A stretch of DNA of 33,591 nucleotides, taken from assembly GCA_002839805.1 (NCBI GenBank), contig PGYT01000029.1, positions 1 through 33,591 of the forward strand, read 5' to 3'. The DNA is from Ignavibacteriae bacterium HGW-Ignavibacteriae-2 (GTDB lineage Bacteria > Bacteroidota > Ignavibacteria > Ignavibacteriales > Melioribacteraceae). Positions 2,322-33,591 of this stretch are shown here, piece after piece. Within the stretch, counting starts at the first letter, position 1. Every line of letters begins with the position of its first letter. The position numbers and the translations under genes were made by a program. The notes under the pieces are model-generated. The model had not been told where the DNA came from. It saw only the letters and a program-made list of their open reading frames with translations, and ran no database searches.

Positions 2322-2882
2322 TTATTGTATACCCTCAACACAATTTTTCAAATCAGAATAATAAATGACTTTTTTTTTGCCTTTGAGGTATTGGAGAACC
2401 GGCTCTCTAAATTGCAGCTGCTTAATTTGTACGGGCGGAAAAACTTTGCTTAAAAAATTGTTCAAATCATCACACTCAACAAAACAAACCCATTGTTCGG
2501 GCTGTAACAGTAAAGGATCTTTTCTGGCTATTGAAAACTGAAATGTCCACGACAATCCGTATTTTTTTGAAGCGGAAGTTTTTTGTGTTTTTACAGCCAA
2601 AGGTATTTTGTTTATTGTAAGATCGGGCGACCATGATTTATAATCGCCTACATAAATTGTATAATCGGGTTTAATTATGTCTGTAGTATATTTACTGAAA
2701 ACCAGGTAAACGGCCTCTTCTCCAAGTTTGCTTATAAAATGATCATTCTCAATTTTTGTTCTTTTGTACTGGTCGCAATCATTGTAGTTTACAGTTTTTA
2801 CGACGGCGTTTGCAAATTCTTTGGCTAAATAAATTTTTTTCGTCGGAATTTCTACGATTATTGGTTTTTCAAATAGTCGCAT
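2322..2882 (-). CDS. Small PD-(D/E)xK-like protein, putative restriction endonuclease
   Basis: A 186-residue protein 13 bases downstream of an adenine methyltransferase on the same strand, the usual arrangement of a type II restriction-modification pair. It has a possible nuclease core: GEE at 54-56, SPD at 85-87, then AVKTQ at 96-100. Spacing of Asp87 to Lys98 fits PD-(D/E)xK, and a Gln two residues after the Lys occurs in several such nucleases. The residue normally Asp or Glu before xK is Ala96, so the active site is a variant, with Glu55/Glu56 possibly supplying the acid, or the protein is inactive. It is shorter than the GATC enzymes of the DpnII/MboI type (about 280 residues). The start ATG is preceded by a weak AGAAG site. 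Function is inferred mainly from the neighbour and this motif; the family was not recognised. Confidence 0.55.
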   Translation of the reverse strand: MRLFEKPIIVEIPTKKIYLAKEFANAVVKTVNYNDCDQYKRTKIENDHFISKLGEEAVYLVFSKYTTDIIKPDYTIYVGDYKSWSPDLTINKIPLAVKTQKTSASKKYGLSWTFQFSIARKDPLLLQPEQWVCFVECDDLNNFLSKVFPPVQIKQLQFREPVLQYLKGKKKVIYYSDLKNCVEGIQ

Positions 2883-2895
2883 AATCTTCTTCTGA

Positions 2896-3750
2896 TTAGT
2901 TGTTGTTTTTGCTTAACTGCACCCTCAAGTCAAAATTTGCTATTAATAATTCTTTCCCTTTTGCAGCTGATTTCCGTTTATAATTGTTCATGCCATATTG
3001 TAATTCCCATTCCACTTGGGAATATTCCTTATAAAGATTCCTTATATACTCGGAGTTATCGTATGTTATCAACCATTTGTGTGAACATTCTTTTACATCT
3101 GCAAAAAATTTTTCGTGATTAAATTCAGTATGCAACAATCCTTTTTTACCATATAAACGGGAGCGGCTAACCGAATAATACGGAGGGTCCAGAAATAAAA
3201 AAATATCCTTTCCCGGTTTTTTTAATAGTAAGGAATAATCTGAATAAATAAAATCAATTTTTTTAACTATTTCTGAAGTTTTTTTCAATCTATTTATGGA
3301 AGACTGTGTGAATCTGCCATCATAACTTGCTTTACTGTACCCACCGGCATCAACAACTCCGGAAAAAGTGATACGATTTAGAATAAAAAAATCGACTGCC
3401 CGGTCAAACTCAGATTGTTGCTTATTCCTTCGCGTCAATATCTTTTCGTATAATTTTCTGCCATCATTTGTTTTGTCGTATATAAACTGAACACTATCAA
3501 TCAACTTTGAGGATTCAGTTTTTAATATTTCCCAAAAACAAAAAACATCGTAGTTCAAATCCGAGGCTACAAAAATTTTATTTTCAAATAATTGCAGAAA
3601 GTGCAAAATAAATGAACCGCCACCAATCATAGGTTCACGTAATTCGCAAAAATCGGGAATAAACCCTTTAATGAATTTAATGGCTTTTGATTTTCCACCG
3701 GGATATCTTAATGGGCTATTAATCACACTTTTTGTTTGCTTATTCGACAA
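2896..3750 (-). CDS. DNA adenine-N6 methyltransferase, D12 class (alpha group)
   Basis: A 284-residue S-adenosylmethionine-dependent DNA methyltransferase. Motif X is SPLRYPGGKSKA at 12-23, motif I is EPMIGGGSF at 39-47 and the catalytic motif IV is DPPY at 188-191. The order X-I-target-recognition-IV is that of the Dam/D12 alpha group. The target region holds NRITFSG and GGYSK (125-140), which differs from E. coli Dam, so a GATC target should not be assumed. The modelled start is TTG (3750); an ATG five bases upstream is out of frame and stops early. A GTG at codon 9 is an alternative, but the family normally has about ten residues before motif X. It is followed by the small endonuclease-like gene and is divergent from hpnC across an 84-base spacer. 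The product identity is secure; the target is unknown. Confidence 0.92.
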   Translation of the reverse strand: MSNKQTKSVINSPLRYPGGKSKAIKFIKGFIPDFCELREPMIGGGSFILHFLQLFENKIFVASDLNYDVFCFWEILKTESSKLIDSVQFIYDKTNDGRKLYEKILTRRNKQQSEFDRAVDFFILNRITFSGVVDAGGYSKASYDGRFTQSSINRLKKTSEIVKKIDFIYSDYSLLLKKPGKDIFLFLDPPYYSVSRSRLYGKKGLLHTEFNHEKFFADVKECSHKWLITYDNSEYIRNLYKEYSQVEWELQYGMNNYKRKSAAKGKELLIANFDLRVQLSKNNN

Positions 3751-3834
3751 ATCATTTGTAATTAAATTAATGCTTTAGTTGCTGATTAAAAACTTATTTC
3801 ATTATTTTCATTTTCAAATTTTTTCTTGGAAAAG

Positions 3835-4689
3835 ATGTACACAGAAAAAGAGTTGAAACTGGCATTTGAAGAATCAATTGCTTTTACTAAAAATCATTAC
3901 GAAAATTTTCCCGTTTTATCTTTGTTTGTTCCTAAACATTTGCGCAAATCTGTAGCCGTAATATACAAGTTTGCAAGAATGGCTGATGATATCGCTGATG
4001 AAGGAAACGCATCGCCTGAACAACGGATGGATTATTTGGAAAAATACGAAAGTCATCTAAATAATTGTTTAGCGGGAGTTTTCGACGATACATTTTGGTT
4101 TGCTTTAAAAACAACAATCGATAATCACAATTTATCCACTCAAAATTTTTTGAACTTGTTGAAAGCATTTAAACAGGATATTGTAAAAAAAAGATATGAT
4201 ACATTCGCTGAATTAATGGCATACTGCAATAATTCCGCAGACCCTGTAGGCCGGCTTATATTGGAATTGCATGGAATTCAAAATGAAGATACTAAGTTGT
4301 ATTCAGATAAAATCTGTACTGCCTTACAGATTACCAATTTTATTCAAGATATTGGCGTTGATTGGAATAATGGACGAATATATATTCCAAGTGATGAAAT
4401 GATAAAATTCGGAATTACTGAAAATGAATTTGACAAGAATAAAAATAATGATAAATTTAGGGAATTAGTTAAATATCAGGTCGATCGGGCAAAAATTATT
4501 TTTGATGAAGGACGTACTTTATTAGGATTCCTGAAAGGAGCGTTAAAATATCAGATCGCCTGGACTATATTTGGAGGCGAAACAATCCTAAATAAAATTG
4601 AGAAAATTAATTACGATACAAGAAAAATTCGACCTACTATAACAAAAATTGACTTACTAAAACTGATAATATTATCATGGAAAATATAA
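3835..4689 (+). CDS. hpnC: Squalene synthesis protein HpnC (hydroxysqualene synthase)
   Basis: A 284-residue member of the trans-isoprenyl diphosphate (squalene/phytoene) synthase family. The first Asp-rich motif is DDIADE at 51-56 and the second is QDIGVDW at 171-177. In the characterised HpnCDE pathway HpnC converts presqualene diphosphate to hydroxysqualene. The assignment to HpnC and not HpnD rests on gene order and the DDIADEG form of the first motif. I chose ATG 3835, preceded by TTGGAAAAG, which serves as the ribosome site; an in-frame TTG at 3826 is less likely. The gene overlaps hpnD by 13 bases, so the two are translationally coupled. It is the first gene of a three-gene unit, divergent from the methyltransferase. 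Confidence 0.9.
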   Translation: MYTEKELKLAFEESIAFTKNHYENFPVLSLFVPKHLRKSVAVIYKFARMADDIADEGNASPEQRMDYLEKYESHLNNCLAGVFDDTFWFALKTTIDNHNLSTQNFLNLLKAFKQDIVKKRYDTFAELMAYCNNSADPVGRLILELHGIQNEDTKLYSDKICTALQITNFIQDIGVDWNNGRIYIPSDEMIKFGITENEFDKNKNNDKFRELVKYQVDRAKIIFDEGRTLLGFLKGALKYQIAWTIFGGETILNKIEKINYDTRKIRPTITKIDLLKLIILSWKI

Positions 4690-5531
4690 ATCTGGAATCG
4701 GCCAAACAAATTTCAAAGAGCAGCAAAAGCAGCTTTTATTATGCGTTCAATCTTTTACCCGTTGAACAGCGTGATGCTATGAACACTGTATACGCATTCT
4801 GCCGCAGAACTGATGACATTGTGGATGAAGATTTTGAAGACAACAATGTTAAGTACGAGAATTTGCGCAAATGGAGAAATGAATTGGAGAGGGGACTACG
4901 CGGTCAGTCAGAATATTCCTTACTGAATAAACTTTCAATAATTATTAGAAAATTTAATATTCCTTTAGAACCATTTTTCGAGTTGATAAAAGGAATGGAA
5001 ATGGATTTGCAGAATAACAGATATCAGAATATGGAAGAATTACTTACATATTGTTATCGAGTTGCTTCAACTGTTGGTTTGATGTGTATTGAAATTTTTG
5101 GATACAAGAACAAGTCTGCGCGGAATTACGCCATTAATTTAGGATTGGCAATGCAGTTGACAAATATATTGCGAGATGTAAAAAAAGATGCCGAGAAAGG
5201 CAGAATCTATTTGCCTCAGAGCGATCTAAATAAATTTAATTATTCGGAAAATGATCTTTTTAATAATATTTATAATAATGAATTTATTGCTCTTATGCAG
5301 CATGAAGGTTCTCTTGCCAAAAAATATTTTAAGGATGCCGATGAAGCCCTTAATTTTGAGGATAAACCTTCCATGTTTGCAGCCAGAGCCATGCAGCATA
5401 TATATTTCAAATTATTAAAAAGACTTGAAGAAAAAAAATTCGACATCTATTCAGATGATATTAATGTAACAAAATTCGAAAAAGCATCTATTGCAGTTGG
5501 TGTCTGGGCAAAATATAGCCTGGTTTACTAA
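4677..5531 (+). CDS. hpnD: Presqualene diphosphate synthase HpnD
   Basis: A 284-residue squalene/phytoene synthase family enzyme. The first Asp-rich motif is RTDDIVDE at 44-51 and the second is NILRDVKKDAEKGRIYLP at 163-180, the classical pair that binds the Mg-diphosphate of farnesyl diphosphate. HpnD is known to condense two farnesyl diphosphates to presqualene diphosphate, which HpnC then uses. ATG 4677 lies inside the end of hpnC. Alternatives are a phytoene or dehydrosqualene synthase; two adjacent synthase paralogs followed by an HpnE-like oxidoreductase favour squalene. Confidence 0.9.
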   Translation: MENINLESAKQISKSSKSSFYYAFNLLPVEQRDAMNTVYAFCRRTDDIVDEDFEDNNVKYENLRKWRNELERGLRGQSEYSLLNKLSIIIRKFNIPLEPFFELIKGMEMDLQNNRYQNMEELLTYCYRVASTVGLMCIEIFGYKNKSARNYAINLGLAMQLTNILRDVKKDAEKGRIYLPQSDLNKFNYSENDLFNNIYNNEFIALMQHEGSLAKKYFKDADEALNFEDKPSMFAARAMQHIYFKLLKRLEEKKFDIYSDDINVTKFEKASIAVGVWAKYSLVY

Positions 5532-5568
5532 TCTCATACTTATTTATCAATCAATAATTAATCTAATT

Positions 5569-6864
5569 ATGAAAAAAGTCATTGTCATAGGCGGTGGTCT
5601 CGCTGGTTTAAGCTGTTCTTGTTCCCTAATTGAATCCGGTGCTGAAGTAATACTTTTAGAAGCTTCTCCTAAGCTCGGAGGCCGTGCTTATTCATTTATA
5701 GACGAGAATACCGGCGATATAATTGATAACGGGCAGCATATTATGATGGGTTGTTATGAAAATACTATAGAATTTTTAAATCAGATTGATGCTGCTGAAC
5801 AATTGTTGATTCAAGATGAACTTAGAGTACCTTTTGTAATGAATGATGGAAGTATACATTTCCTCAGTTCTTCAAATAACAGATATCCAATTAATCTTTT
5901 AAGAAGTATAATTAAATTTACAGCGTTAAGTATAAAGGAACGTATTCGAGTATTAGATCTCTTTTTGGATTTATTATGTTTTGAGGAAGAAGATTTGATA
6001 GATCTAACTGTGAAAGAGTGGCTGCTCAACGAATCGCAGGATGAAAATTCAATTAAAATACTATGGGAAGTATTGGCTATAGGAACTCTTAATTCCAAAA
6101 TTGAAGAAGCTTCGGCGGGAGTATTCGTTAATGTTCTTAAACGAATATTTTTGGGTGGACAGGAAGCCTCTAAAATAATGCTTCCGATCAATGGACTTAG
6201 TGAAATGTATGTAGCTCCGGCCGCCGAATTCATAAGGAGGCGTGGTGGAACTATTGTTGTCTCAGAGAGAGTTACCGGTGTAACCTTTGAAAGTGACGAA
6301 GTTGTTAGAATTGATACGAATAAAAACTCCTATACTGAATTTGATTTTGTTGTTTCAACGATACCTCTGCATGCATTATCTAAAATTGAATCAATTGAGA
6401 AAATTTTAAATCTGCAGTTAAATCAAATAAAATATTCTCCGATTTTATCCATTAATATTTGGCTTAGTAAAAATGAGTTTACAGAAAGTTTTTACGCCCT
6501 AGTCGATTCGGATATTCACTGGTTATTCAATCATGGATCATATATAAGCCTTGTTACCAGTGCTGCGGAAGGTTTAATCAATTTGACCGATGAAGAAATA
6601 ATGCGCAAAACTATTAGTCAATTGTCAAACAATTTTTGTGTCTTTTCTCCCGATTTAATATTAAGTTACAAAATACTAAAAGAAAAACGAGCCACATATA
6701 TTCCATCTTCTGAAAGTATTATTTGCCGAAATAGGATAACAGACTCATTTGGTAATTTTATCCTGGCTGGAGATTGGACGGAATTAATGTTGCCCGCAAC
6801 AATTGAAAGTGCGGTTTTAAGTGGTCGTAAGGCCGCTGCGAAAATTTTGGAGTATAATCGCTGA
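5569..6864 (+). CDS. hpnE: Hydroxysqualene dehydroxylase HpnE (FAD amine-oxidase fold)
   Basis: A 431-residue flavoprotein of the carotenoid desaturase/amine oxidase superfamily. The N terminus has a dinucleotide fold with GGGLAG at 8-13, the ribose-binding acid Glu31 and the GGRAYSF motif at 37-43. A C-terminal FAD motif lies near LAGDWTE (399-405). HpnE is known to reduce hydroxysqualene to squalene, completing the HpnCDE route. I chose ATG 5569, 37 bases after hpnD, because MKKVIVIGGG is where the fold begins; a longer in-frame reading that starts inside hpnD adds 26 residues with no family support. It is the last gene of the cluster; no squalene-hopene cyclase follows in this window. Confidence 0.9.
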   Translation: MKKVIVIGGGLAGLSCSCSLIESGAEVILLEASPKLGGRAYSFIDENTGDIIDNGQHIMMGCYENTIEFLNQIDAAEQLLIQDELRVPFVMNDGSIHFLSSSNNRYPINLLRSIIKFTALSIKERIRVLDLFLDLLCFEEEDLIDLTVKEWLLNESQDENSIKILWEVLAIGTLNSKIEEASAGVFVNVLKRIFLGGQEASKIMLPINGLSEMYVAPAAEFIRRRGGTIVVSERVTGVTFESDEVVRIDTNKNSYTEFDFVVSTIPLHALSKIESIEKILNLQLNQIKYSPILSINIWLSKNEFTESFYALVDSDIHWLFNHGSYISLVTSAAEGLINLTDEEIMRKTISQLSNNFCVFSPDLILSYKILKEKRATYIPSSESIICRNRITDSFGNFILAGDWTELMLPATIESAVLSGRKAAAKILEYNR

Positions 6865-6929: not shown

Positions 6930-8234
6930 ATGTCACAACTAAAAAAGAAACTGTTCGAAAAAATTGAAGAATGGCGTCCACGTACTACAAGACTTCTAAA
7001 GGATTATGGAGACGTAAAGTTGGGGGACGTAACTATATCCCAAGCAATTGGAGGTATGAGGGGTGTTAAATGTTTAACAACCGATATTTCTTATCTCGAT
7101 CCATTCGAAGGCATTCGGTTTAGAGGTTTAACAATTCCCGAAACACTCGCAAAATTACCCAAAGTTCCGGGTTCCGAAATGCCGTATGTGGAGGGATTTT
7201 TCTTTTTACTTTTAACCGGCGATATTCCTACAGACGAAGAAGTTAATGAAGTTGCAGAAGAATTTAACAACCGCAAAAAAGTACCCGCTTATGTTTTTAA
7301 TATTCTCCGCGCTATGCCTGCAGACTCCCACCCAATGACAATGTTATCAGCTGCAATTGTTGCTATGCAGAAAGAATCTGTATTTGTAGAAAAATATAAT
7401 GAAGGTATAAATAAAATGGATTATTGGGATCCTACTTACGAGGACGCATTAAATCTTTTGGCGCGTTTACCAGAGGTAGGTGCATTTATTTATAGACTGA
7501 AGTATAAAGGTGGGGAAATAATTGCGCCGGATCCTAAACTTGATATGGGCGGTAATTTTGCTCATATGATGGGCATTGGTAAACCATATGATGATTTGTC
7601 CCGTTTATATTTTATTTTACACAGCGATCATGAAAGTGGTAACGTTAGCGCACATGCGGGACATTTGGTTTCAAGTGCCTTATCCGATATATATTACTCA
7701 ATTTCTGCTATGGTAAACGGTTTAGCCGGACCTTTGCACGGTTTGGCCAATCAGGAAGTTTTGCGATGGCTTCAGGAGGTTTACGAAAAGAAAGGGGGTA
7801 AAATTCCTACTGAGGAAGAAATGAAAGAATTCGTATGGGAAACTCTTAATTCCGGACAGGTTATTCCGGGATTTGGACACGCCGTACTTAGAAAGACTGA
7901 TCCTCGTTATATGGCTCAGCGTGAATTTTGTCTGCAACATCTGCCTAACGATCCATTATTCAAATATGTTGATCTTCTTTATAAAGTTGTTCCGCCAATT
8001 TTGGTTGAGCAAGGTAAAGCAAAAAATCCGTGGCCTAACGTCGACGCTCAATCCGGTGTTATTCAATGGTACTATGGCTTAACTGAGTATGATTATTACA
8101 CTGTATTATTTGGGATTGGACGTGCCCTAGGTGTTTGCGCAAATATTATTTGGGACCGCGCTCTTGGTTATCCTATAGAAAGACCTAAATCACTTACTAC
8201 TGCAATGCTCGAAGAAATTGCCGGTATAAAATAA
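6930..8234 (+). CDS. gltA: Citrate synthase, mitochondrial (eukaryotic-type) family
   Basis: A 434-residue citrate synthase that condenses acetyl-CoA with oxaloacetate in the TCA cycle. By comparison with the pig mitochondrial enzyme, the catalytic residues are His270 (AGPLHGLANQ), His317 (PGFGHAVLRKTDPR) and Asp372 (PWPNVDAQSG); oxaloacetate ligands His234 and Arg326 are also kept. Long stretches match the mitochondrial enzyme far better than the E. coli allosteric hexamer, so this is the eukaryotic-type si-synthase. No NADH-regulatory N-terminal domain is present. The start has a good ribosome site (GAGGG, 6 bases upstream). A hairpin terminator follows, so it is probably expressed as a single gene. 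The gltA symbol denotes the reaction, not orthology to E. coli GltA. Confidence 0.96.
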   Translation: MSQLKKKLFEKIEEWRPRTTRLLKDYGDVKLGDVTISQAIGGMRGVKCLTTDISYLDPFEGIRFRGLTIPETLAKLPKVPGSEMPYVEGFFFLLLTGDIPTDEEVNEVAEEFNNRKKVPAYVFNILRAMPADSHPMTMLSAAIVAMQKESVFVEKYNEGINKMDYWDPTYEDALNLLARLPEVGAFIYRLKYKGGEIIAPDPKLDMGGNFAHMMGIGKPYDDLSRLYFILHSDHESGNVSAHAGHLVSSALSDIYYSISAMVNGLAGPLHGLANQEVLRWLQEVYEKKGGKIPTEEEMKEFVWETLNSGQVIPGFGHAVLRKTDPRYMAQREFCLQHLPNDPLFKYVDLLYKVVPPILVEQGKAKNPWPNVDAQSGVIQWYYGLTEYDYYTVLFGIGRALGVCANIIWDRALGYPIERPKSLTTAMLEEIAGIK

Positions 8235-8372: not shown

Positions 8373-11300
8373 ATGAATGATATAAAAAATTTAATAGAAA
8401 AAATATCCGCCGGCAGGGCATCTTTGGATGATAATACCGGAAATAAATTGTTTAAAGATATTGTAGATGAAATAGAAAAAACAGCAGAATTGTTCGGTAA
8501 GAAACCTGATGAAACCGTTATAAGTAATTGGAATGATTTGCTGCTTCGAATTAATTCTTCACGTTTCGGACGTGAAATTGCCGCCCGATTAGATCCGGCA
8601 AAATTTTATAAATTGGGACAAATGCTTTCTTTAGCGCTAAGTGAAAATTCTATAATCTCGAAAGCTCTGATTCCAATTGTTCATGAATATCTTGACTTAT
8701 TCAGGCAGCCTGAATTTCTAATTAAAATTTATAATCAAAGAATTTGGGACGAATTGATTCTTGATCTTATAAGAAAATCGAATTATAACTTTAAGGTTCT
8801 TTTCACTCAGCGTGTAAGAGACTATTCTTCAAAACCTCTTCTCGGATTGATTAAAAACAACAATATAAAAATGTACAGTTGGGATGAAGTATCGGACATT
8901 GTTTCGCATTATTTAAAAGCAATTTACTCTGCTTTATCAGAAGATTTAGATAACGAAATTAACGTTGCATTTCTTCTGGAGAATAGTTTAAATATGGCAT
9001 GCCTGGATTTCGCATGTTTATCTGGCGGGGTCGTAAATGTTATGATTCCGTCTAATTCGGTTGAGCAGCATATTGAGTTTATCCTAAATGAAACTAAAGT
9101 TCCGCTTTTATTTGTGTCCGATGAAAAACAACTTACCAAGATTAAATCAATTAAAAATAAACTTACTTATCTCAGGAAAGTTATTCTTGTTGAAGGAATT
9201 AGCGCAGAATCCTGGGTTATAACATTCGAGAACTTTTTAGGTTCAGCTGCAGCAAACACAATTAAAAAGGATATTTTTGAAAAAAATCTGCATTCCGATA
9301 AACTTGCTACAATTATGTACACATCCGGTACTACAGGCGAGCCTAAAGGTATAATGTTTTCGCATACAAACATTATTTATAAAAGATTTTGCAGAGCTAT
9401 GGCAATTCCCGGAATTGGAGATAAAGACAGATTCCTATCATATCTACCATTATTTCATACATTCGGCAGATACCTTGAATTAATGGGATCAGTTTTTTGG
9501 GGAGCGGAATATTATTTTATGGAAAACCCATCTCTTAATGCAATTTTATCGAATATGCAGCAGGTTAAACCGACAGTGTTTATTAGCATTCCCAAAAAAT
9601 GGATTCAACTTTACGAGTATATAGCTTCGCAGGTTGATATTGAGTTGGAGGATGTAAGGCTAATTAAAGATACGGTTAAATCAGCCACAGGAAATGAATT
9701 AAAGTGGGGTTTATCGGCCGCAGGTTTCCTACCTCCTGAAATTTTTCAATTTTTTCAGAATAACGGTGTAGAATTGATGAGTGGTTTCGGGATGACTGAG
9801 GCCACGGGCGGTATTACGATGACTCCTCCTGAAAAATATAAATCAAATTCTTTGGGTAAGGCATTACCAGGAATCGAAATTAAAACCGCAGAAGATGGCG
9901 AACTTTTAATTCGAGGCAATTATGTTATGCTGAATTACTTTGGACAAAATAAAGATGAGGTATTCGATTCCGAGGGTTGGCTGCCGACCGGTGATGTTAT
10001 GCGGATGGATGAAAATAATTTTATAGAAATAATTGATAGAAAAAAAGAAATCTATAAAAATGTTAAAGGGGAAACAATTGCTCCGCAGAAAATCGAGAAT
10101 TATTTTCGTGATTTCGAAAGTATTAAACAGGTATTTCTTGTTGGAGATCACAGACCATTTAATACTCTGCTTATTTATCCGAATTATGATATTCCCGAAT
10201 TATCTTTCCTTACGTTATCCGATGGTGAAAAAAATGAATATTTTTCCTCGTTAATAGTTACCGTCAATAATTTTCTTGCACCCTTCGAACGAATAGTGGA
10301 TTTTCGACTTGTTAATAGGGCATTTTCAGAAGATCACGGTGAATTAACACCTAAAGGCACTTACAAAAGGAGAATGATAGAAAAAAATTTTGATGATGTT
10401 ATAGAACCAATGTATGAAAGAAATTTCACCGAACTTCTTGTAGGAACATTTAAGTTACGAATTCCAAATTGGTTTTTAAGAGAAAAAGGCTGTTTGAGTG
10501 CAGATATAATTTACGAGAATTATAAAATTATCATTCCCAAAACCGGTTCAGGATTATTCATAAAAAAAGTTGATGATGAATTTGTTAAAATTGGTAATTA
10601 CCGATATAGACATTTGTCAAATACTATAGAACTTCAATGGTTATTAATTGATCCGGAACTTTGGATAGGTAATAATCAACTGGTTGATTTCGCCGGAAAT
10701 TCAATTATTCAATGGCAGCAAATAATAAACAGAAATCCCGGATTTTCCTTTTCCTCGATAATCGATAAATATTTACCTGATAATTTCGACGGAAATTATT
10801 TCAAACAAATCACCGAATCGGGTGAAAATTCAGTTTATGGTTTGCACCTTGCAGTATTAGCAATACAGACTGACGAGTATTTTAATTTGGGATTATCATA
10901 CATTGAAAACTGTCTTACCGAAGTTGATTCAATTGTATCAAAATATTCATTCGAAATTTTAATGCGTCCGGATTATGGAAAATCAAAATCATCAAGAAGA
11001 TTGATGCTGAAAACCGCTGTACAACACTCTTCACCCCATTCTCTCGCCACTTTTTTAAGAAAATATATCGATTATGATTGGGATATTATAGATGATGAAA
11101 TTATAGATGTTACCTCTAAACAGGGGAAAAAACCCGATAAAATGAATACTCTAATATCATTGTTGAGAGCGAAAATAAAGGAATTGGAAATAGATGAAAA
11201 GATTGATGAAACTTGTATTCCTTCAATTTTTAAAATGGTTTGCCAGTATGGTATTAAACATCCCAGCACATACGAAAAAATTCGTCAGGTATTTGTAGAA

Positions 11301-13154
11301 TATCAATTACAAAAAAGTAAACCAAAACTTTCTCTTTTAGCGCTTGAAACGCGTAATATACTTAGAAATGGTTTTAGAGCCTGGTTTGGTGAAAATAAAT
11401 CCGTAGCAGTGGATATGGAAACCAATGAGGAATATGGATGGGAGGATGTTATTATATTTGAGGATGGTATTTCTAAGGATGATAAAGAAAAAATCCAAAA
11501 GTGTATTGTCGAGACCGTTCTTTTAAGTGAAGCTATTTTTTTAATATCTAAAGGTAAGGTAATACAGCTTAATGATCTGCTGCCAGGCGGAATCTGGATT
11601 AGTGAATTACGCAGATTTCATAATAAAACAAATTACAGAGTGTCAGTACAAACTCGTTTATACGGTTCATTCGAGCTTGTTTTTACAATTAATTTCTGCA
11701 GACAAAAAGATGATATAAACAACGAAGTTAGTTTACTTATTCTCGCAGGATCCCGCCAGTATCTTCAGGAGTTGGTGGAAGATTTTGGCGGTTACTGGGA
11801 GAAATATGATTTATGGAGCAGTAAATATATACCTGGGGATTCAGCCGAAAAATTTCTTGCAAGGGAATATAGGAAAATTGAGGATTTTAATAATAACAGG
11901 TTATATTTTATTTGGCCCTATTTTGTCTGGAACGCCGCCGCGGCTTATTTTAATTTTTGGAGATTAACTGATTATAAGGAAATTCTTTCTGACCCTTCTT
12001 TAGATAACTTTATTATTCCTTCTCATGATTACCAAACTGGAACAAAGGTAATTTCATTATCCCAAAAATCGCCTTTTATTTCGTTGACAGATCTTTTTCG
12101 AAATTTCTATAGTTTATTCATTGAGGCTGGTGAAAATAAATATCCTTTCCTCCATAGGAAAAAGATTTGGACATTCGCATTTGCAGGATTAATAAATGCT
12201 GAAGGAGAGGAATTAGGAATAAAAATTCTCAAGGATTTTAAAAATGAATTGATGAAAAAAAATGTATTTGAAAATGAACTTGAGATTGAACATCAACTGG
12301 ATGAGTTTATTAAAACAGTTAGTGAAGGGAATTATGTGCCAAAGCTTTTATACTTTGCAATAAAACGTTTCCAGAGGTGGAAACAACTAAATAATGATGC
12401 CGATCAAACGGCTCAGGCGCAGATGCTTAATGAACTTTACGAAACCTACCGTCTGTCGGAACTTACGCAGGCATATCCGGAAGCTCGTGCCAAACTCTAT
12501 TTTGAAACTGTATTTTCCAACTCATCAGATGAATTAAAAGTTGTACTTAAAGAAATTATTGAACAATACCACAAACATATTATTACTGAAGAAGAAGAAT
12601 TATCGATGCTCTCAAACCTTTCATCGCAATTCAACTTATCGGAAAGTGAAAAATTCTTTCTTACCCGTTTAATATATCCTTATCTAAAACCATCCGATTC
12701 AGCTCACTTAATTGAATATAAAGTTGATGGCAAAGCTTCGTCAAATTTGGTGGTTGAATATGAAGATTCCGACGGTATGCAGTACTATATAAGGAAACCA
12801 ATCTCTCCAAAAGAAATTTCTCGTCTGCATCAAATATTTATCGAAGCAAATTTACTTGTTACCTTCCGGCCAGAGCATGAATATCTGCTTGCAATATCTG
12901 AAAGGGGATTTATAATAGGCGGATTGTATTATTTGCGTCAATCAGATGGTTCTGCTTATATGGAAAAAATTGTTGTATCTAACAGATACAGGAGAAAGGG
13001 AATTAGCGACAGACTTATGAACGAATTTTTTGAAAGAATGCATAATGATAGAATTAAATTTGTTACAACCGGATTTTTCAGACCTGAATATTTCTACAAA
13101 TTTGGCTTCAGTGTAGAGAAAAAGTATTCCGGACTTGTTAAAGAATTGAAATAA
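8373..13154 (+). CDS. Megaprotein: AMP-forming acyl-CoA ligase, unknown central region, GNAT acetyltransferase
   Basis: A 1593-residue single open frame. Residues 1-145 are a helical region of unknown role. About 148-685 is a long-chain acyl-CoA synthetase-like adenylation domain: P-loop MYTSGTTGEPKG at 315-326, GFGMTE at 471-476, PTGD at 538-541, and the C-terminal TPKGTYKRR at 659-667 with Lys665 as a possible catalytic lysine. About 690-1440 matches nothing I recognise; it has motifs such as LPGGIW (1069-1074) and FGGYW (1138-1142). About 1475-1590 is a GNAT domain with the acetyl-CoA motif RYRRKGIS at 1538-1545 and YKFGF at 1575-1579. It seems soluble, with no signal or membrane segment. 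An inferred scheme is that the ligase makes an acyl-CoA or acyl-adenylate and the GNAT acylates something; no substrate can be named. ATG 8373 follows TTGGAAA; an ATG four bases earlier hits a stop. The frame is intact throughout. Confidence 0.85.
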   Translation: MNDIKNLIEKISAGRASLDDNTGNKLFKDIVDEIEKTAELFGKKPDETVISNWNDLLLRINSSRFGREIAARLDPAKFYKLGQMLSLALSENSIISKALIPIVHEYLDLFRQPEFLIKIYNQRIWDELILDLIRKSNYNFKVLFTQRVRDYSSKPLLGLIKNNNIKMYSWDEVSDIVSHYLKAIYSALSEDLDNEINVAFLLENSLNMACLDFACLSGGVVNVMIPSNSVEQHIEFILNETKVPLLFVSDEKQLTKIKSIKNKLTYLRKVILVEGISAESWVITFENFLGSAAANTIKKDIFEKNLHSDKLATIMYTSGTTGEPKGIMFSHTNIIYKRFCRAMAIPGIGDKDRFLSYLPLFHTFGRYLELMGSVFWGAEYYFMENPSLNAILSNMQQVKPTVFISIPKKWIQLYEYIASQVDIELEDVRLIKDTVKSATGNELKWGLSAAGFLPPEIFQFFQNNGVELMSGFGMTEATGGITMTPPEKYKSNSLGKALPGIEIKTAEDGELLIRGNYVMLNYFGQNKDEVFDSEGWLPTGDVMRMDENNFIEIIDRKKEIYKNVKGETIAPQKIENYFRDFESIKQVFLVGDHRPFNTLLIYPNYDIPELSFLTLSDGEKNEYFSSLIVTVNNFLAPFERIVDFRLVNRAFSEDHGELTPKGTYKRRMIEKNFDDVIEPMYERNFTELLVGTFKLRIPNWFLREKGCLSADIIYENYKIIIPKTGSGLFIKKVDDEFVKIGNYRYRHLSNTIELQWLLIDPELWIGNNQLVDFAGNSIIQWQQIINRNPGFSFSSIIDKYLPDNFDGNYFKQITESGENSVYGLHLAVLAIQTDEYFNLGLSYIENCLTEVDSIVSKYSFEILMRPDYGKSKSSRRLMLKTAVQHSSPHSLATFLRKYIDYDWDIIDDEIIDVTSKQGKKPDKMNTLISLLRAKIKELEIDEKIDETCIPSIFKMVCQYGIKHPSTYEKIRQVFVEYQLQKSKPKLSLLALETRNILRNGFRAWFGENKSVAVDMETNEEYGWEDVIIFEDGISKDDKEKIQKCIVETVLLSEAIFLISKGKVIQLNDLLPGGIWISELRRFHNKTNYRVSVQTRLYGSFELVFTINFCRQKDDINNEVSLLILAGSRQYLQELVEDFGGYWEKYDLWSSKYIPGDSAEKFLAREYRKIEDFNNNRLYFIWPYFVWNAAAAYFNFWRLTDYKEILSDPSLDNFIIPSHDYQTGTKVISLSQKSPFISLTDLFRNFYSLFIEAGENKYPFLHRKKIWTFAFAGLINAEGEELGIKILKDFKNELMKKNVFENELEIEHQLDEFIKTVSEGNYVPKLLYFAIKRFQRWKQLNNDADQTAQAQMLNELYETYRLSELTQAYPEARAKLYFETVFSNSSDELKVVLKEIIEQYHKHIITEEEELSMLSNLSSQFNLSESEKFFLTRLIYPYLKPSDSAHLIEYKVDGKASSNLVVEYEDSDGMQYYIRKPISPKEISRLHQIFIEANLLVTFRPEHEYLLAISERGFIIGGLYYLRQSDGSAYMEKIVVSNRYRRKGISDRLMNEFFERMHNDRIKFVTTGFFRPEYFYKFGFSVEKKYSGLVKELK

Positions 13155-32087: not shown

Positions 32088-33591
32088 ATGGGACATCAAA
32101 AAGATTTATTCGAAGTACCAAAAGTTAATTCAGTACAACAAATGTTATTGAATACTGTGGATAAATATAAGGACAAACTAGCACTCGAGGATCTTAACAA
32201 AACTCCCATTGGCAGATTAACATATAATGATTTGTTGGATAAAGTCTTAAGATTTGGAAACTCATTAAAAAAAATAGGGTTAGCTGAAAGATCTCACATA
32301 GCGTTGATTAGCGAGAATAGGGTTCAGTGGGCGGTTACTTTTTTAACAAGCATGACATTTAATTATGTGATTGTTCCAATTGATAGAAATCTTACTGAAA
32401 ATGAAATTTTAAATATAGTTCACGAATCAGATTCCGAAGCAATAATCTTCAGTGAATCTTACGAAGAAATATTTTCGGGAGTTAAGTCTTCACTAAAAAA
32501 AGTAAAACACCTTATATGCATGGATGAACCAACACAGAAGAAAGAGATTCATTCTATGGTAAACATGATAAATTCTAATCCTGCTTTCGATTTATACAAG
32601 TTGCCATCAATTAATCCTAATGAAACAGCTGAAATTATTTTTACATCTGGCTCTCTTGGCAGAGCTAAAGGAGTTATGCTTTCTCAGAAAAATTTAGCTT
32701 CAAATTTAGTGGATATGGTCAGTATGCTTTTTATGCATCCGGAAGACAAATTCCTTTCAGTACTACCTATGCATCATACATACGAATGTACATGTGGGAT
32801 GTTGTGTCCTCTTTATTGCGGATCATCAATTCATTATGCCCGATCTTTAAAGACCGTCACAGATGATTTAAATAAAGTCAGTCCTTCAATTTTATTAGGT
32901 GTTCCATTATTATACGACAAAATGTTTAAAAAAATAAGTAAATCGATAAACGAAGATAAAGTGAAATCGAAGATCATACCTCCTCTTAAAAAAATAACTA
33001 ATCTTTTGTCCAGTGCCGGTTTAACTGATGTGAAGAAAAAAATATTTAAAGAATTGCATGCGCGGTTCGGCGGGAATATAAGAGTATTTATAGCGGGGGG
33101 CGCCGCTCCCGATCCAGAAGTAGCTAAAGGATTGCGTGAGTTTGGTTTCAGTTTTTTACAGGGTTATGGTTTAACGGAGACATCCCCAATTCTTGCCTTA
33201 AACAGAATTAACGATTTTAAGGATAACGCTGCCGGACTGGCTTTACCAAGCGTGGAAATTAAAATAACAAATCCTGATGAAACTGGATCCGGAGAAATTT
33301 ATGCCAAAGGTCCAAATGTTATGTTGGGATATTATAAAAATCCAAAACTTACTGCCGAAGTATTTGACGGTGATTGGTTTAAAACAGGAGATATCGGTTT
33401 TATTGATAAAGATGGATTTTTACATATAAACGGCAGACAAAAAAATGTGATCATCTCTAAAAGTGGAAAAAATGTTTTCCCTGAAGAAATTGAGGATGGT
33501 TTGAACAGAAGTCCATATATATTGGAATCAATTGTTTATGGATCAAAGGATGAAAAACAGGATGAGATTATAGCCGCTCAAATAGTAGTTG
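32088..33591 (+). CDS. Long-chain acyl-CoA synthetase-like AMP-forming ligase, 3' end cut by window
   Basis: An open frame of 501 codons that runs off the window edge; the C-terminal part is missing. It translates to an AMP-forming ligase: P-loop FTSGSLGRAKG at 185-195, LPMHHTYE at 226-233, AGGAAPDPEV at 336-345, QGYGLTETSP at 358-367, TGDIG at 433-437, GRQKNVI at 449-455 and GKNVFPEEIE at 460-469. The family activates fatty acids to acyl-CoA through an acyl-adenylate. The P-loop has Ser-Leu where Thr-Thr is usual, and Ala for Pro in the PKG position. ATG 32088 has a good GGTGGG site. Together with ETF nearby it suggests fatty-acid use, but the acyl-chain preference cannot be read. Confidence 0.9.
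   Translation, partial: MGHQKDLFEVPKVNSVQQMLLNTVDKYKDKLALEDLNKTPIGRLTYNDLLDKVLRFGNSLKKIGLAERSHIALISENRVQWAVTFLTSMTFNYVIVPIDRNLTENEILNIVHESDSEAIIFSESYEEIFSGVKSSLKKVKHLICMDEPTQKKEIHSMVNMINSNPAFDLYKLPSINPNETAEIIFTSGSLGRAKGVMLSQKNLASNLVDMVSMLFMHPEDKFLSVLPMHHTYECTCGMLCPLYCGSSIHYARSLKTVTDDLNKVSPSILLGVPLLYDKMFKKISKSINEDKVKSKIIPPLKKITNLLSSAGLTDVKKKIFKELHARFGGNIRVFIAGGAAPDPEVAKGLREFGFSFLQGYGLTETSPILALNRINDFKDNAAGLALPSVEIKITNPDETGSGEIYAKGPNVMLGYYKNPKLTAEVFDGDWFKTGDIGFIDKDGFLHINGRQKNVIISKSGKNVFPEEIEDGLNRSPYILESIVYGSKDEKQDEIIAAQIVV

Follow-up and report, generated by a model that had tools for sequence, protein, structure and literature searches.

Several described systems resemble parts of the protein that is analysed in this work. 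Long-chain acyl-CoA synthetases (FadD11) and the adenylation domain of carboxylic acid reductase have in common with it an AMP-binding domain, a P-loop, the further site residues that are conserved in the family and an AMP-binding_C_3 lobe. The Pat/PatA/PatZ proteins, which combine an NDP-forming CoA-synthetase-like domain with a GNAT, and the AcuA-AcsA system couple a GNAT to a CoA ligase, as is the case here. The Acyl-[ACP]--phospholipid O-acyltransferase fusions (PRK06814 and PRK08633) carry an AMP-forming ligase and an acyltransferase in one chain. That acyltransferase is not known to be a GNAT. ACAD10/ACAD11 are alike in that a kinase domain is fused to an acyl-CoA enzyme, as described in the extract of PMC11342911.

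The window is the whole stretch of DNA that was analysed (33,591 nucleotides of Ignavibacteriae bacterium HGW-Ignavibacteriae-2). One of its genes encodes a protein that consists, in order, of a ligase, a beta-rich linker, a helical (HEAT-like) region, a predicted kinase-like fold, further helices and a GNAT. The features of this gene are as follows.

8373..13154, plus strand: whole open reading frame, 1,593 aa, ATG start, zero internal stops
8373..8789, plus strand: N-terminal extension, residues 1-139, poorly conserved (mean 30% identity to close members)
8934..9941, plus strand: AMP-binding large lobe of the ligase, residues 188-523 (PF00501, E 1.7e-55)
10062..10421, plus strand: small C-terminal lobe AMP-binding_C_3, residues 564-683 (PF23562, E 1.2e-11)
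10338..10373, plus strand: A10 motif GELTPKGTYKRR, residues 656-667, with Lys661, Thr663 and Lys665 within it
10440..10790, plus strand: small beta-rich linker, residues 690-806 (secondary structure of the AlphaFold2 model)
10791..11390, plus strand: helical region, tentatively labelled HEAT-like, residues 807-1006 (helices 118-316 of the AlphaFold2 model)
11460..12320, plus strand: predicted protein-kinase-like fold, residues ~1030-1316 (AlphaFold2 model, Foldseek and VIA)
12321..12692, plus strand: helices between the kinase-fold domain and the GNAT, residues 1317-1440 (AlphaFold2 models)
12750..13151, plus strand: GNAT acyltransferase, residues ~1460-1593 (Pfam and VIA)
12990..13007, plus strand: CoA loop R1540-S1545 (RRKGIS), with G1543 in 26/26 and R1540 in 24/26 aligned members

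A single match that has no stop and covers 1,470 or more query residues was found in 34 of the 58 genomes, the window's own included. The 1,593-residue protein is a conserved family, and a fusion by chance or by assembly is rejected because 34/58 genomes hold a near-full-length, stop-free match. The one complementary frame that was read on the opposite strand over 8373-13154 is full of stops. The preliminary description had considered the frame a real, intact polypeptide and had proposed a search for its architecture across genomes; the stop-free frame and the matches in other genomes support the former, and the latter recovered near-full-length matches in 34 of the 58 genomes. Partial or split matches were found in five further genomes (G013, G021, G028, G032, and G040). 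The remaining 19 genomes exhibit ligase matches alone among the matches listed, with E of ~1e-37 to 1e-47.

The full-length alignment consists of 26 members, which are the window, 16 close members (43-63% identity to the window) and nine distant members (22-29% identity). Their lengths are 1,513-1,613 aa, and the alignment of the distant members runs end to end. In the 16 close members, conservation is highest at the two enzymatic ends: the mean identity to the window is 69% for the GNAT, 63% for the ligase, 52% for the helices after the kinase fold, 47% for the kinase fold, 40% for the linker and 30% for the HEAT-like part, the last being the same level as that of the N-terminal extension. 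The rank differs in the nine distant members, where the ligase (38%) is ahead of the GNAT (27%), followed by the kinase fold (19%) and the HEAT-like part (13%).

The seven member loci that were named belong to Melioribacteraceae (two), Ignavibacteriales (two), 'Bacteroidetes' (one), 'Chlorobiota' (one) and Calditrichia (one). Residues 690-1593 as the query matched 14 of the 247 sampled genomes of the phylum, one of them by the GNAT alone, and 33 of the 294 genomes of the class, where one match (G498) looks like chance. The search with profile A2 matched 23 of the 198 genomes of the phylum, with the whole region in 10 and short GNAT matches in the rest. The phylum of the Calditrichia bacterium exhibits matches to residues 690-1593 in 23 of 40 genomes, of which 22 are strong and one is GNAT-only. 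The strong matches lie within frames of 1,555-1,638 aa in 18 of the 22, one with an internal TAA. In one Calditrichia-phylum member (L149, G522:C227), a single TAA splits the gene into frames of 840 and 742 aa, which points either to decay of this copy or to an error in the sequence. The plasmid search, for which residues 690-1593 were taken from the distant member L071 instead of the window, gave no match. The scan of the 1,593-residue protein against a defence library (PADLOC) also gave no match.

The genes upstream of the fusion gene in the window are as follows.

6930..8234, plus strand: citrate (Si)-synthase gene
3826-6864: HpnC, HpnD, and HpnE genes (squalene route), all over their NCBIfam cut-offs, next to the citrate synthase gene

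HpnC, HpnD, and HpnE-type genes and citrate (Si)-synthase precede the fusion gene at most of the close loci. Citrate (Si)-synthase was found within at most two intervening ORFs at 13 of the 26 loci, all of them close members; it is rejected as a general partner, being present at 0/9 distant members and 0/13 Calditrichia-phylum loci. An HpnD-type match was found in 58 of the 58 genomes, with E of 1e-94 or better in 55 of them. The weaker matches are from G031 (5.1e-52), G028 (65% identity over a fragment at a contig edge) and G054 (3.1e-12), the last of which perhaps represents another family. A function derived from the upstream squalene genes is rejected, as the HpnD-type match also occurs in genomes without the fusion. 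The adjacency looks like local synteny because the 19 genomes without the fusion, except G054, keep a strong HpnD match. Among the 26 loci and the 13 Calditrichia-phylum loci that were compared, no neighbour is common to the whole family, and the fusion gene seems to act alone.

Other neighbours were also observed. A TetR-type regulator lies downstream at two of the 13 Calditrichia-phylum loci, which we count in favour of the acyl-activating enzyme proposed below; the regulator at L139 is YsiA-like by a score that barely passes the threshold (21.2 bits, cut-off 21). Upstream at seven of these 13 loci (L012, L139-L142, L144, and L147) is a related protein that reaches 1,549 aa, with some copies shorter or cut. 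The L012 copy, which is the sole copy that was scanned, has Ig/cadherin-like and LVIVD repeats. In the window, a D12 DNA adenine methyltransferase gene (PADLOC Type II methyltransferase, E 9.5e-109) and an ORF of 186 aa beside it occupy 2322-3750 on the minus strand. Neither Pfam nor PADLOC matched the 186-aa ORF at E <= 0.001, and among the 26 loci the pair recurs in L009 alone. The pair looks as if it were a small restriction-modification insertion.

We tentatively favour, at somewhat less than an even chance, a one-chain enzyme that activates and transfers acyl groups and whose middle is an inactive kinase-fold scaffold or gate. The N-terminal ligase would activate a carboxylic acid with ATP to give an acyl-CoA, and the C-terminal GNAT would take an acyl group from CoA and pass it to an amine. 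The helical region and the kinase-fold domain, with the usual catalytic Lys and DFG Asp lost, would hold both ends. The kinase-fold middle may also gate the ends, for example through the binding of a nucleotide or of a partner. We infer the overall reaction, its acyl chain, its amine acceptor and the gating role, and the evidence from the ends and from the middle is considered below.

The score of the ligase large lobe is 188.9 bits for PF00501 (gathering cut-off 29.9), and that of the small lobe is 45.5 bits for PF23562 (cut-off 20.8). These matches, together with the Pfam match of the GNAT, agree with the earlier assignment of an AMP-forming ligase to one end and a GNAT to the other. FadD11 is the best NCBIfam match, with 198.6 bits that are far under the curated cut-off of 950. 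The best 25 NCBIfam matches are all ligases or ligase-containing proteins and are far under their own cut-offs; PRK06814 scored 118.4 bits (cut-off 1349) and PRK08633 scored 116.7 bits (cut-off 1221). Judged by its best profile matches, the ligase is of the long-chain acyl-CoA synthetase kind. The conserved nucleotide motifs of this end include residues T317, S318, G319, G322, K325, E476, D541, R556, and K562, which are invariant in 26 of the 26 aligned members. The names that we take to apply to the conserved positions are P-loop, A5 Glu, A7 Asp, and A8 Arg. The motif names A3, A8, and A10 are also used in the extract of PMC11255334.

The A10 catalytic lysine of the ANL superfamily is absent from all 26 aligned members. 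Its position, Thr663 in the window, is occupied by Thr in 19 members and by Ser in seven. Lys is aligned to Thr663 in eight of eight comparison ligases from the same order, which were hand-picked from the genome-search matches; a ninth, at the end of the window, is cut before the motif and was not counted. Five of the eight read GE(I/M/V)TP(S/T)LK and three exhibit a shorter form. The ungapped alignment made here with carboxylic acid reductase 5mso also puts Lys opposite Thr663. The A10 pattern search matched 98 of 101 entries (56 distinct motifs, many from overlapping loci), and this number is a presence check, given that the pattern permitted only T/S/A and required K at Lys661; the unbiased count is that of the 26 aligned members. 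The ligase at the window end (32088-33590) is a second AMP-forming ligase that runs off the window. Its P-loop reads FTSGSLGRAKG, with Leu where the other aligned ligases have Thr.

Lys661, two residues before Thr663, is kept in 26 of the 26 aligned members. Mutation of the A10 lysine strongly impairs adenylation in several ligases, according to the extract of PMC11255334. The family has either moved the lysine to Lys661 or lost efficient adenylation. Full acyl-CoA synthesis is doubtful unless Lys661 substitutes, because the A10 lysine is Thr or Ser in every aligned member.

The loss of this lysine bears on a second explanation, in which the ligase adenylates poorly and acts as a sensor of acyl groups or nucleotides, or performs the thioester half-reaction only, and the GNAT is the effector, with another protein or a small molecule as its target. 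It is consistent with the replacement of the lysine in 26/26 members against its retention in 8/8 ligases of the same order. It also has a precedent in actinobacteria, where GNATs controlled by a fused sensor domain (for cAMP or amino acids) are known, as the extract of PMC8007912 describes; the gating role in the enzyme that we favour has the same precedent. However, the other ATP-site and CoA-site residues that were checked are invariant, something rarely seen in a dead enzyme, and the ligase ranks with the best-conserved parts. We consider the impaired ligase rather unlikely.

The preliminary description had also raised autoacetylation of Lys665 in the manner of Pat/AcuA, and a third explanation is that the GNAT acetylates the fused ligase in cis and switches it off. 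GNAT control of AMP-forming ligases is known from AcuA-AcsA and Pat-Acs (extracts of PMC11255334 and PMC4053389), and candidate targets exist in Lys661, which is invariant, and in Lys665, which is K in 17 of the 17 close members (window included). However, the target of Pat/AcuA is the A10 lysine, so that the acetylatable residue that is a trait of Pat/AcuA-controlled acyl-CoA synthetases is absent from this family, and Lys665, by its place in the sequence, is not the A10 lysine. The earlier emphasis on Lys665 is appropriate for the close members and not for most of the distant members, where its position is N in five, K in three and R in one. Regulation in cis, through Lys661 or, in the close members, through Lys665, is unlikely, and the direct comparison with Pat/AcuA that had been drawn for Lys665 is not supported.

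The Acetyltransf_1 domain (PF00583) was identified at residues 1493-1579 with E of 7.3e-6 and 26.7 bits (cut-off 20.7). VIA aligns this end with YhbS 4rs2 (Z 16.1, rmsd 1.8, 132 aligned) and GCN5/PCAF 1cm0 (Z 15.6, rmsd 1.9, 124 aligned). The segment R1540-S1545 is the GNAT CoA-pyrophosphate loop, R-x-x-G-x-S/G/A. The C-terminal end thus exhibits a Pfam score over the cut-off, the conserved CoA loop and the GNAT fold. Tyr1573 and Tyr1575 are kept in 17 of the 17 close members. In the nine distant members, position 1573 is F in 9/9 and position 1575 is varied; the loss of both Tyr residues and the low identity suggest that the GNAT chemistry may vary across the family. GNATs mostly use short acyl groups, so the product of the ligase may not be a substrate of this GNAT.

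The middle of the protein had been left unassigned in the preliminary description. The Pfam scan of residues 690-1470 at E <= 10 listed zero models, a result to be read with the caution that HMMER filters discard most matches above ~0.1, and a search of the PDB with the sequence of the middle gave zero matches. The AlphaFold2 model of residues 690-1593, which was built from an alignment of 26 rows, has a pLDDT of 88.4 and a pTM of 0.75. In this model, residues 807-1006 form paired helices, and the mixed domain, the helices and the GNAT come after them. The top Foldseek match of the 904-residue model is PI3KC3/Vps34 (E 8.9e-5, 626 columns, TM 0.20, rmsd 19.9). The HEAT-like label is tentative, as it is based on the order of the predicted helices and on this low-TM PI3K match. 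The structure prediction and fold search that had been proposed for residues 690-1440 yielded a helical region and a predicted kinase-like fold.

The middle had been suggested to be a carrier, substrate-recognition or regulatory module, and the last two roles may apply. A carrier (phosphopantetheine) domain is rejected, as no Pfam match was found at E <= 10 in residues 690-1470 and the models show other folds, with residues 807-1006 seen as part of the larger model. The models give a helical region and a kinase-fold domain whose catalytic residues are degenerate. From the self-contained acylation enzyme of the preliminary description, we retain the two ends as a plausible pair that makes and uses acyl-CoA, and we discard the carrier.

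The AlphaFold2 model of residues 1007-1434 alone, from 35 sequences, has a pLDDT of 91.1 and a pTM of 0.86. The alignment of these sequences (A3) includes nine of the 18 Calditrichia-phylum loci L072-L089, the nine minus-strand loci being left out; one of the nine used, L079, is from a member with a TAA that lies outside the stretch used. Foldseek matched the model to Rio2 (E 9e-5), Wee1, BRAF, a Kae1-Bud32 fusion, Eph kinases, and PsiK, with low TM-scores (0.24-0.34 when scaled to the query length, 0.59 at most when scaled to the target). The best VIA-align 2 match is Bud32 4ww7 (Z 12.9, rmsd 4.1, 222 aligned), followed by PRPK 7szc (Z 12.5, rmsd 4.4, 212 aligned), PsiK 8zic (Z 12.5, rmsd 4.0, 240 aligned), NahK 4ocu (Z 12.3, rmsd 3.9, 224 aligned), and Rio1 1zth (Z 11.4, rmsd 4.1, 207 aligned); VIA re-scores chains chosen by Foldseek, and its notes state that mostly helical models can reach Z 14 by chance arrangement. 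The best 50 VIA rows are all kinase-fold chains by title, small-molecule kinases among them, and the absence of other families from these rows excludes nothing. The matched part of the model has a five-stranded N-lobe, and Foldseek and VIA agree on one fold. Residues ~1030-1316 are therefore predicted to adopt a protein-kinase-like fold. The profile search of the region gave a best E of 0.013 (bone sialoprotein-binding protein), with the kinase STK4 at E 0.68-0.93. The Pfam scan of the 35 kinase-fold regions gave no family in more than two members, with a best E of 0.0013.

The canonical residues of an active kinase (beta3 Lys, HRD Asp, and DFG Asp) are not conserved in the predicted fold, where the residue equivalences (1207, 1212, 1228, beta3, and helix C) are those inferred from the predicted strand order. 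The position of the DFG Asp is Ser1228, and it is Ser in 35 of the 35 sequences. The position of the HRD Asp is 1207, which is D in 17/35 and N in 9/35. The beta3 strand (1099-1107) has Lys in at most two of the 35 sequences at any position, and the protein of the window has no beta3 Lys. The catalytic-loop Asn is Asn1212 (34/35), and the presumed helix-C Glu is Glu1118 (25/35). Arg1089 and Asp1219 are kept in 33/35 and 31/35, respectively. The domain looks like a pseudokinase, although this assignment depends on the predicted fold, as does the degeneracy of its residues. Kinase folds without the standard residues can have other activities.

Such an activity is part of a bolder proposal, a three-step acyl machine in which the ligase lysine has shifted by two residues to Lys661 and the kinase fold has a new activity, or is a nucleotide switch, that controls the hand-over of the acyl group from the ligase to the GNAT; we consider it improbable. 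It is highly improbable that the domain is an active non-canonical phosphotransferase on the acyl chain, with ligase, kinase and GNAT acting in series, since Ser occupies the DFG Asp position throughout, the beta3 Lys and HRD Asp are not conserved and the profile comparison with 15 of the 30 APH-family loci gave no similarity (probability 0.2%), even though Asn1212, Arg1089, Asp1219, and Glu1118 are conserved, small-molecule kinases are among the VIA rows and the ACAD10/ACAD11 kinase domains, fused to an acyl-CoA enzyme, act on 4-hydroxyacyl-CoA (extract of PMC11342911).

The inactive kinase-fold scaffold or gate remains the reading that we favour. If it is true, a conserved bacterial enzyme uses a kinase-shaped domain, in which the usual kinase residues are missing, to link the activation of an acid to acyl transfer, and its ligase lacks the lysine that is thought essential for adenylation. 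The ~800 residues without a Pfam model would also be accounted for. One protein would then pose two questions, which are whether the A10 lysine is movable and what role inactive kinase folds have in metabolic enzymes. Every part belongs to a known fold family. Their arrangement appears to be new: searches of one library of open-licence PMC papers turned up no description of this ligase/kinase-fold/GNAT architecture, of its kinase-fold middle or of the loss of the A10 lysine.

Comparing the family to the known systems, it differs from FadD11 and carboxylic acid reductase in that the A10 Lys is replaced by Thr or Ser in 26/26 members and in that ~900 further residues are fused to the ligase. The family differs from Pat/PatA/PatZ and AcuA-AcsA in two ways, as its ligase is of the AMP-forming type and it lacks the lysine on which Pat/AcuA act. 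In the Foldseek search with the 904-residue model, E. coli PatZ 9it0 came up as a weak match (rank 44, E 1.8e-3). The predicted fold of the middle is like that of Bud32/PRPK, Rio1/Rio2, and APH-type kinases, but the sequence similarity to them is not convincing and the catalytic residues are degenerate here. PI3-kinase (Vps34), with a helical domain and then a kinase domain, has at best a similar order of parts and probably not a similar arrangement (TM 0.20). ACAD10/ACAD11 differ in that the partner is an acyl-CoA dehydrogenase and the kinase is active, as described in the extract of PMC11342911.
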